Part shown: one piece after another, positions 22,179 through 23,714 of the stretch
Layout of the letters: each line of letters begins with the position of its first letter
Position numbering within the stretch: the first letter of the stretch is position 1
IMG/VR virus record: IMGVR_UViG_3300027733_000911
Location: 1 to 33,792 of that record
Source of the DNA: a virus
Strand: one strand, 5' to 3'
DNA: 33,792 bases
Notes under the pieces: generated by a model
Seen by the model: only the letters and a program-made list of their open reading frames with translations
Databases searched by the model: none
Told to the model about the DNA's origin: nothing
Program-made: the position numbers and the translations under genes

Positions 22179-22443
22179 GCAAAACCGCCTAATGTGGGCA
22201 AACCTTGAGGACATTGCCCAGCAAGTGGTCTGGCATGGGTTAAAGCTGGACAAACACGAATGGAAAGACGTATTGACGGCGGGGCTAAAAAAGCAAAAGA
22301 TCGTGCCAGGCATCGAGGGCGGGTTTGTGGTCATTGGAGCAAGGACAAGCAAAATGAGCATTGCAGAGATGAACGAGCTGATTGAGTTATCCACAATGTT
22401 TGGCGCGCAGCAAGGCGTTAAGTTCAGAGCACTTGAAGAATGA
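22165..22443 (+). CDS. ninB: NinB-like recombination protein, 92 aa
   Basis: The NinB pattern runs through the whole protein: RSLEQNRLMWANLEDIA at the start, WHGLKLDKHEWKDVLTAGL, VPGIEGGFVVIGARTSKMS and a C-terminal MNELIELSTMFGAQQGV. Lambda NinB (Orf) binds single-stranded DNA and SSB and replaces RecFOR functions in phage recombination. At 92 residues it is shorter than lambda's 146, as in many NinB homologues. It overlaps both neighbours, in a nin-like operon. Confidence 0.8.
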   Translation: MRSLEQNRLMWANLEDIAQQVVWHGLKLDKHEWKDVLTAGLKKQKIVPGIEGGFVVIGARTSKMSIAEMNELIELSTMFGAQQGVKFRALEE

Positions 22444-22625
22444 GATGCCCAGAGTGCGGCACATGGACAATAGTCAAAGAAACGCGAACAAGCACCGGCA
22501 ACACACGCAGGCGGCGGCTGGAATGCGCCAATGAACACCGATTTACAACACTGGAGACAATAATTGTTTCAAAAACACGAATACGTCAGATCAAAAAAAC
22601 TGCTGAAACTGGTGGCGGGGCTTGA
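22440..22625 (+). CDS. NrdR/Ogr-like zinc-ribbon protein, 61 aa
   Basis: MRCPECGTW at the start and RRRRLECANEHRFTTLET give a zinc ribbon (Cys3, Cys6, Cys29, His33) very like the N-terminal zinc domain of NrdR and of phage Ogr/Delta activators. There is no ATP-cone, so it is not an NrdR repressor. A role as a small transcription factor or nucleic-acid-binding protein is possible, including activation of the late promoter just downstream. It overlaps the HNH gene by 62 bases. Confidence 0.65.
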   Translation: MRCPECGTWTIVKETRTSTGNTRRRRLECANEHRFTTLETIIVSKTRIRQIKKTAETGGGA

Positions 22626-22917
22626 TTGCCAAGCCTGCGGGTCGGGCAACATGGTGCAGGCGGCACACACAAATTGGGGTGGGGGCAAGGGTAGGGGCGT
22701 TAAGGCTGATGACAATCTAGTGGCTGCGCTGTGCCTTAAATGCCATTATGAAATTGACCAAGGCAAGGATTTGACCAAAGAAGAACGGCAAGAAAAATGG
22801 CAGCAAGCCCACATTGCTACGGTTGCAAAACTTTACAACCAAGGTTTATGGCCTGTTGACGTACCCATTCCAGCGTTTACAATAGAATTGCAGTTGTCTC
22901 CTTTAGAGGGTCTGTGA
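22564..22917 (+). CDS. YbcO/DUF1364-type HNH recombination nuclease, 117 aa
   Basis: Cys22/Cys25, His35 and the CLKCHYEID core (Cys57, Cys60, His61) form a treble-clef HNH site; VQAAHTNWGGGKGRGVKADDNLVAALC matches the DUF1364/YbcO pattern (residues about 31-57). Such nucleases sit in nin-type regions beside NinB, as here. The start is TTG at 22564 with GGAG 7 bases upstream. The stop codon lies inside the loop of a terminator hairpin. Confidence 0.75.
   Translation: MFQKHEYVRSKKLLKLVAGLDCQACGSGNMVQAAHTNWGGGKGRGVKADDNLVAALCLKCHYEIDQGKDLTKEERQEKWQQAHIATVAKLYNQGLWPVDVPIPAFTIELQLSPLEGL
22856..22883 (+). promoter_or_regulatory. Strong promoter before the late region (pR'-like)
   Basis: TTGACG (22856-22861) and TACAAT (22878-22883) are 16 bases apart and each matches sigma-70 consensus at 5 of 6 positions. 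It lies inside the end of the HNH gene and would start transcripts at about 22890, only some 15 bases before the terminator. The layout recalls lambda's late promoter, whose transcripts stop at a nearby terminator until antitermination. Confidence 0.7.
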
Positions 22918-22929
22918 CCCTCTTTTTTT
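22905..22929 (+). terminator. Perfect intrinsic terminator at the early/late junction
   Basis: AGAGGGTC (22905-22912) and GACCCTCT (22916-22923) form a perfect 8-bp stem with a 3-base loop, followed by six further T residues. It closes the early rightward operon and also lies at the very start of transcripts from the 22856 promoter, giving a possible 40-base terminated RNA. Confidence 0.9.
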
Positions 22930-23357
22930 GAGAGCTAATAAGTCTGAGAGTTGGTGGGTATGAAGTCGGTCATGTGGCCTCTGAGGTGTGGTGTCTTGCA
23001 AGTTAGCCTAGCCCAAGTCATTAATCCCGATGCTCCATGCGGATCGCAACCGCAACAGCTTTCAGTCTTGTTGGTGCGTGTAGCATTGAATCGGAGTAGA
23101 TCACGTTTGCCCACTGCAAGGCGTGACGAAGCTGGCGGCTAGAACTGTGGTGAAACCGTCCGCACCAACAACTAACACGCATGGGGACTAAACGTGCGGC
23201 AACGGGTGGTAATGGGCCTAAATGCCAGCAAACCAAATCCACTCAGTCCCCAGCCGTGTTGGTGTCGAGTAACGAAACTGTACGCCAGATACCTGATCGG
23301 GTGGGTCTGCAAACCTGTAGGTCGCAACGCTGGTCACCGACAACTTTAAGGAAAAGT
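22930..23357 (+). ncRNA. Candidate large structured RNA / late-operon leader
   Basis: About 430 bases without a credible gene. Helix D pairs 23068-23078 with 23161-23171 (11 perfect pairs), enclosing hairpin TCACG/CGTGA (23101-23105 with 23122-23126). Helix E pairs 23171-23179 with 23255-23263 (9 pairs) and, after a 2x2 loop, 23182-23189 with 23245-23252 (8 perfect pairs); D and E abut and could stack. TGCGG/CCGCA (23038-23042 with 23050-23054) and a 3' domain at 23284-23335 also pair. TGTTGGTG occurs at 23069 and 23257, and both copies complement CACCAACA at 23163, allowing two exclusive folds. It lies between promoter/terminator and the late genes. Function unknown. Confidence 0.65.
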
Positions 23358-23714
23358 ATGAAAAAAGACGTTGCCGACTTTATTTCCACAATGTTTCACA
23401 GTAGCACCGTGACGCATTTCATGCACTTAGCCACTGATTCATTTTCAGTTCACATGGCGCTGGGGGCTTACTACGTTGAAATTGTTGACTTGGCTGATCA
23501 GTTTGCCGAGGCTTACGCAGGGTGCTACGAAAAGATCAAGGATTTCCCTGAGAACTTTCACAATGCCAAAGACCCTGTTAAGTACCTGACCAGCATCAAG
23601 GATTACGTCTACAAGAACCGTGAGGCATTGCCAGACGACACCCAGCTCCAAAATATCGTGGACGAGATAGCGGCGCTGATTGACACAACCCTGTACAAGT
23701 TGACCCTCAAATGA
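23358..23714 (+). CDS. DUF5856-like protein, 118 aa
   Basis: An all-helical protein beginning MKKDVADFISTMFHSSTVTHFMH, with ALGAYYVEIVDLADQFAEAYAG in the middle. I recognise the DUF5856 pattern known from tailed phages; the His/Glu-containing helices resemble a ferritin-like bundle, but no diiron site is assured. The ATG at 23358 is chosen because AAGGA precedes it; the frame is open further upstream through the structured RNA. It is the first gene of the late region and overlaps the next by 4 bases. Confidence 0.7.
   Translation: MKKDVADFISTMFHSSTVTHFMHLATDSFSVHMALGAYYVEIVDLADQFAEAYAGCYEKIKDFPENFHNAKDPVKYLTSIKDYVYKNREALPDDTQLQNIVDEIAALIDTTLYKLTLK

Follow-up and report, generated by a model that had tools for sequence, protein, structure and literature searches.

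The late leader of this virus is an array of four structured modules, in the order A1-B1-A2-B2, placed between a conserved promoter with its immediate terminator and the first late gene. Modules of the same two kinds were found in other viral loci, in other orders and with other neighbours, and most relatives that keep the promoter and terminator lack them altogether. Our preferred reading, to which we give a probability of roughly 60%, is that the array is a mobile cassette array of non-coding RNAs, read when RNA polymerase passes the late terminator and processed to small RNAs that act in trans. Below, the window denotes the whole 33,792-nt stretch of DNA that was analysed (IMG/VR record IMGVR_UViG_3300027733_000911), and numbers beginning with L are our handles for the loci compared with it.

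Conserved late promoter and immediate terminator

The late promoter lies on the + strand at 22856–22883, inside the 3' end of an HNH endonuclease gene. It consists of TTGACG (22856–22861), a 16-nt spacer and TACAAT (22878–22883), with 10 of 12 matches to consensus. Three promoter-like sites were observed in 2.5 kb and 2.3 were expected from shuffled sequence, which is not above chance, and thus comparison with relatives has to decide whether the promoter is real. Relatives were retrieved with the first late protein (23358–23714, DUF5856) as the query. Results showed that the exact arrangement TTGACG-16-TACAAT is kept in 82 of 87 related loci, and that promoter and terminator stand together upstream of the DUF5856 gene in about 85 related viral contigs. 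The codons of the HNH gene that overlap the −35 and −10 boxes (GTT GAC and TTT ACA) showed no synonymous exchange in 49 sequences, against a background in which just 13 of 86 conserved codons of that gene were invariant. Synonymous change was also nearly absent from the codons that follow the −10 box (GCAGTTGTCT, up to 49 sequences).

The likely transcription start (~22890) coincides with the element GCAGTTGTC (22890–22898, +), whose codons CAG TTG TCT were invariant or nearly so. No 7-mer was more enriched than GCAGTTG in the 30 nt before 92 strong terminators (17 observed, 0.31 expected), these terminators coming from loci that had been fetched by array patterns. Besides the window, the loci concerned are L127, L140, L141, L145, L147, L152, L156, L159, L178, L180, L183, L272 and L278. 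GCAGTTG can fold into a GCA-GT-TGC hairpin similar to the ops loop recognised by RfaH. This likeness prompted us to consider a NusG-type (RfaH-like) factor; the candidate was rejected, a PF02357 (NusG-type) search of the window record having given no match.

An intrinsic terminator occupies 22905–22930 (+), between the promoter and the late genes. It begins about 15 nt past the likely start and is formed by an 8-bp stem (22905–22923) with a 3-nt loop, followed by T7. Relatives keep the terminator with other perfect stems (AGAGGGTC/GACCCTCT, GCAGGGG/CCCCTGC and GGGGGGC/GCCCCCC). Because the promoter and terminator are conserved, the codons are synonymously constrained and the stems have been swapped for other perfect ones, we concluded that both are real signals. 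The promoter, the GCAGTTG element and the terminator are all selected at the nucleotide level.

The gene order around these signals is lambdoid: NinB (22165), the HNH gene (22564–22917, +; phrog_131, with a weak match to DUF968), promoter, immediate terminator, leader and late genes, beginning with the DUF5856 gene (23358–23714, +; phrog_858). The HNH gene, which in the window is the last gene before the late promoter, was present in 75 of 75 relatives. The window holds a sigma70 promoter, an immediate intrinsic terminator and then the late operon, as in a lambda-type switch, with nin-type genes upstream as in lambda. In lambda, the terminator lies much farther from the +1 position than the ~15 nt seen here; the window also differs from lambda in that no Q homologue was found among the ORFs scanned and an RNA array takes the leader's place. 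A preliminary description of this DNA had placed the promoter at the same position, a terminator about 15 bases downstream and a non-coding leader of about 430 bases after it, had likened the layout to lambda pR'/tR', and had recognised no Q-like protein; our comparisons bear out each of these points.

No Q-family match and no conserved antitermination factor were found among the ORFs scanned; at least five unrelated types of Q antiterminator are known (PMC8022706). A 61-aa zinc-ribbon ORF that adjoins the late promoter (22440–22625, +; NrdR N-terminal / Ogr-Delta-like) is a weak candidate for a late regulator because it was present in just 50 of 75 relatives, which also speaks against it as a Q substitute.

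The leader itself (22931–23357) is non-coding. Extended to its longest ORF (23181–23714, +), the first late gene would begin within module A2, but all relatives start this gene at 23358, and the ORF from 23181 is a mechanical extension. The true start is thus likely to be 23358, and annotation programs may take the array for coding sequence.

Structure and covariation of the leader modules

An A module is a long hairpin in which a constant clamp, CYAACACG-CAT-GGGGATTG ... CAGTCCCC-AGC-CGTGTTGG, encloses an exchangeable cargo that varies widely in both sequence and length. A B module is multi-branched and closed by GTTGGTG/CACCAAC; it starts with the GTTGG that ends the A module and closes with CCAAC. 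Since an A module and the B module that follows it use one GTTGG strand, either closing helix excludes the other over about 5 bases.

Module A1 (22935–23074, +) has the clamp CTAATAAG..CTTGTTGG, an inner helix CTGAGAGTTG..CAGCTTTCAG and a conserved cargo of ~95 nt (GTCGGTCA..GGTGTCTTGCAAG..CCCGATG). Module B1 (23070–23169, +) is closed by GTTGGTGCG/CGCACCAAC (23070–23078 with 23161–23169) and carries a covarying long arm and two short arms. Module A2 (23172–23262, +) has the canonical clamp CTAACACGCATGGGGA..TCCCCAGCCGTGTTGG around a cargo of its own, and module B2 (23258–23341, +) has the closing stem GTTGGTG/CACCGAC and the cargo GAGTAACGAAACTGTACGCCAGATACCTGA.... The features that define the class are found in the window, namely the clamp mismatch, a 10-bp inner helix ending AUUG/CAGU and B modules of the form GTTGG..CCAAC; the inner helix of A2 ends ACTA, not ATTG.

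We searched IMG/VR with a degenerate clamp pattern, which gave at least 120 stretches, and all counts derived from them are lower bounds. The fetched loci yielded at least 138 distinct A elements, A2 being one of them (one randomised copy of the same sequence gave 0), and at least 129 B candidates. A1, B1, B2 and the clamp recur independently of each other; B2, for example, was found in 11 viral contigs behind differing A modules. A looser clamp pattern had no match in 84,980 cellular species genomes, and a second scan of these genomes, for the A1 core, gave no copy either; close relatives of the freshwater form were not found in them. The next ORF was on the same strand for ~74% of A elements (99 same versus 34 opposite), a bias that is approximate because gene calling in fragments is crude.

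Covariation analysis, which the preliminary description had called for, gave strong results for A1, B1 and the A clamp. Among 22 homologues of A1 with differing neighbours, 99.5% of cells were paired and 19 of 35 pairs showed two-sided change, a score reached in 0 of 500 shuffles; two pattern matches, L277 (unrelated) and L274 (rearranged), were excluded from this alignment. The pairing of A1 collapsed once partners were slid by one column. Shuffle controls leave the kinship between sequences in place, whereas the slid-partner control removes it, and the two agree. The clamp was compared across 30 sequences that included enterobacterial phages and both A1 and A2 of the window, and two-sided change was seen in 15 of 18 pairs (0 of 500 shuffles). 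By inspection, the clamp contains a pyrimidine-pyrimidine mismatch; it also has a U.G wobble in 24 of the 30 sequences, the others having C-G or U-A. For B1, 10 homologues gave seven pairs with compensatory changes, and one pair of the long arm occurred in as many as five pair types. One class of B modules, class I, opens with the closing stem and AAT, continues with a 4-bp arm, a variable part and a 5-bp arm, and ends with the other strand of the closing stem; pairing was 95.2% across 22 sequences taken from phages of freshwater, of enterobacteria and of Burkholderia (0 of 500 shuffles). Covariation, wobble and mismatch together are constraints of an RNA type. The folding energy of the whole leader was weak evidence (z = −1.75), so the case for structure rests on the covariation instead.

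Two strong helices, D and E, had been named in the preliminary description without coordinates. They most likely correspond to the closing stem of B1 and the clamp of A2 (23172–23190 with 23244–23262), both of which recur and are conserved. That description had also said that a lack of conservation of these helices in relatives would count against its reading. The objection stands in so far as most relatives have no leader, but it fails where a module recurs, because there the helices are kept with compensatory changes.

Two observations concern the cargos. At L274 (1045–1140), an A clamp encloses a cargo in which part of the A1 core (GGTGTCTTGCAAGCTAGCC) stands in rearranged surroundings, which suggests recombination within cargos. 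Sequences resembling a tRNA T arm (GGTTCGACTCC) occur in A cargos at L126 (2848–2960, minus strand) and L080 (3778).

Absence of the array from most relatives

The array was absent from 42 of 56 distinct relatives. In these, the terminator is followed directly by a ribosome-binding site, and the gene starts ~10 nt downstream. The other 14 carry inserts of ~100–380 nt, giving promoter-to-ATG distances of 190–471 nt (~508 in the window). Loci L111, L123, L224 and L229, which have a similar first gene, carry the array between the upstream gene and the GCAGTTG-terminator, and in L136 it comes immediately after the promoter region and leads to the gene without an intervening terminator. Since the leader is missing in 42 of 56 relatives and the position of the array relative to the terminator varies, the leader is not a necessary part of the switch. 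We concluded from these comparisons that the array is an insert, and that the conserved promoter and terminator ahead of it stand without modules in most relatives.

Relatives of the modules in cultured phages

Searches of the window with ARAGORN and Rfam RF00005 found no tRNA, and Rfam at the gathering score and at E ≤ 10 gave no family, including RF02076, GOLLD and ROOL. Elsewhere, tRNAs occupy equivalent slots. At four loci with real tRNA genes, the array meets or overlaps these genes to the base. In L001, L188 and L145, module A begins with the 3' CCA of a tRNA; in L161, the 3' end of A doubles as the 5' strand of the acceptor stem in a tRNA that GTTGGTG/CACCAAC closes; and Rfam tRNA matches stand in the B position in L161, L142 and L203.

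A query with the class I core retrieved 174 INPHARED records at E ≤ 1, the matches being short. The core was held by all 14 of the regions that were read, among them HK620, PY54, N4-like IME11, P1-like RCS47, PMG1 and Klebsiella phage Magnus. The order in HK620 is Q, pR', qut, early terminator, RNA array and holin, so that its array takes the same place as that of the window, and this match also fits the lambda pR'/tR'-like layout.

The Rfam model of the STnc100 RNA (RF02076) shows the B layout. STnc100 and its likely homologue PasD (PMC13192938), which are enterobacterial prophage sRNAs, share with B a 7-bp closing stem (..GGUG/CACC..), the AAU, the arms and a last arm stacked on the closing stem. 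In RCS47, STnc100 directly follows an A clamp but scores 38.3 bits against a cut-off of 47, and in Klebsiella phage Magnus it exceeds the cut-off with 52.9 bits. B1 and B2 of the window, in contrast, differ from STnc100 in sequence and arms, and RF02076 was unmatched. Two published studies treat STnc100 as a single sRNA and not as one slot of an A/B array (PMC13192938, PMC5331693); STnc100 copies are transcribed in EHEC, one of them confirmed by Northern blot (PMC5331693). Genes for tRNAs are known near the 5' end of lambdoid late operons; those of phages L and Sf6 resemble the window array in lying directly behind the late start and ahead of the lysis genes (PMC8022706), whereas the window has no recognisable tRNA and has A hairpins interleaved.

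We also noted, in enterophage arrays, a tmRNA-like piece with a resume codon and tag (GCAAACGATGATGTTGTTCTGATGGCGGCGTAA, ANDDVVLMAA; in HK620, ANEEMYLAVA). Such pieces lie at 1192–1340 of L242 (IME11), 1222–1345 of L241 (Bas80), 1685–1847 of L249 (Magnus) and ~1740–1840 of L246 (HK620). The match of the IME11 piece to Rfam tmRNA_permuted (33 bits) is below the cut-off of 47. Annotated hypothetical proteins overlap RNA modules at L241 1211–1576, L245 1513–1683 and L249 1907–2041, and such annotations over modules in cultured phages are probably spurious.

No Rfam families were found for the array class beyond STnc100 and tRNA, and we did not find the array described in the literature on phage tRNA-like arrays, late-operon non-coding RNA or phage tmRNA. 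The array modules belong to a large, mostly undescribed family of phage RNAs, with STnc100 among the relatives.

Discussion

The immediate terminator suggests that the late operon is transcribed only if RNA polymerase is made to read through. Under the logic of lambda pR'/tR', the late promoter would fire into this terminator, and some factor would bring about read-through. We suggest that the phage acquired the cassette array A1-B1-A2-B2 behind this gate, and that modules spread through recombination between clamps. The array would be made as the head of the late mRNA once the terminator is passed. Each B module is a tRNA-sized branched RNA, with its closing stem where the acceptor stem sits in arrays that contain tRNAs, and the closing helices of A and B would compete for the GTTGG strand. 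Most likely, the array would then be processed to small structured RNAs, which may serve in trans as accessory RNAs of a tRNA-like or sRNA-like kind. Three points favour trans action: most relatives have the same operon without the array, its modules are found again at other sites in a different order, and RNAs known for trans action are among its members. As counterpoints, 0 of the 4 window modules are recognisable as a tRNA or an Rfam member, the ORFs scanned gave no conserved antitermination factor, and no more than ~74% of A elements have their next ORF on the same strand.

The least unlikely of the alternatives, although improbable, is a leader that acts in cis, as HK022 put sites or a protective 5' UTR do, and either helps polymerase to read through or stabilises or regulates the late mRNA. 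The array resembles put in being a structured RNA with which a phage transcript begins, in the window as in HK620, and in L136 it stands right behind the promoter region of a gene with no preceding terminator. However, put-like action for the window operon, raised in the preliminary description, is unsupported because the 42 relatives without the leader have the same promoter, terminator and gene, and because the modules occur elsewhere. Arrays lie before the terminator (L111, L123, L224) or after it (window), they are found at unrelated loci, including beside tRNAs, and their cargo is highly diverse. The preliminary description had also offered a large phage RNA of the GOLLD or ROOL type. The array is phage-borne and of ~430 nt, and related arrays lie near tRNAs; nevertheless, we consider one large ornate RNA very improbable, since Rfam gave no match and the four modules are separable and have recombined independently.

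Near-palindromic clamps, shuffled modules and the common junctions CAAC/GTTG would also suit mobile palindromes or recombination sites that act as DNA (attC-like or REP-like), in cruciform or single-stranded form. Integron attC arrays likewise consist of imperfect palindromes in series, whose tips vary and whose borders are AAC/GTT. Yet the clamp keeps its U.G wobble, other helices have G-U variants, A elements are biased to the direction of transcription, and B cargos have internal covarying arms or are real tRNAs. The R-box consensus of attC is GTTRRRY, and GTTGGTG does not conform to it: by inspection, the A/B borders read CYAAC and GTTGGTG, where attC has R'' RYYYAAC and R' GTTRRRY. Given this RNA-type covariation, we rate a DNA-level role as improbable, next after action in cis. 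Below both we place the view that the modules are neutral remains, decayed phage tRNA clusters that spread as selfish or drifting insertions with no function. Arrays do adjoin tRNAs, vary and are dispensable at the window locus, but the covariation score was reached in 0 of 500 shuffles in each of three tests (A1, B class I and clamp), and conserved loop sequences are unexpected under decay.

Processing to trans-acting RNAs thus remains the reading that we favour. Because B-type arrays are present in tractable phages (HK620, PY54 and BASEL Bas77-80), array function is directly testable. The array class brings together three isolated sets of facts: the tRNA genes found where lambdoid late operons begin, STnc100 as an orphan prophage RNA, and the structured DNA that many cultured phages carry without annotation. 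More tentatively, and at somewhat less than even odds, tailed phages of Proteobacteria, from lakes and laboratory collections alike, may share an exchangeable platform in which clamp-closed A hairpins alternate with tRNA-shaped B modules that compete for a common strand. Its slots would be filled by tRNAs and tRNA-like RNAs, by RNAs of the STnc100 type, by tmRNA-like pieces and by dozens of RNAs not yet described. Carried at the front of late transcripts, such a platform would deliver variable trans-acting RNAs, perhaps as decoys or substitutes against host defences directed at tRNA.
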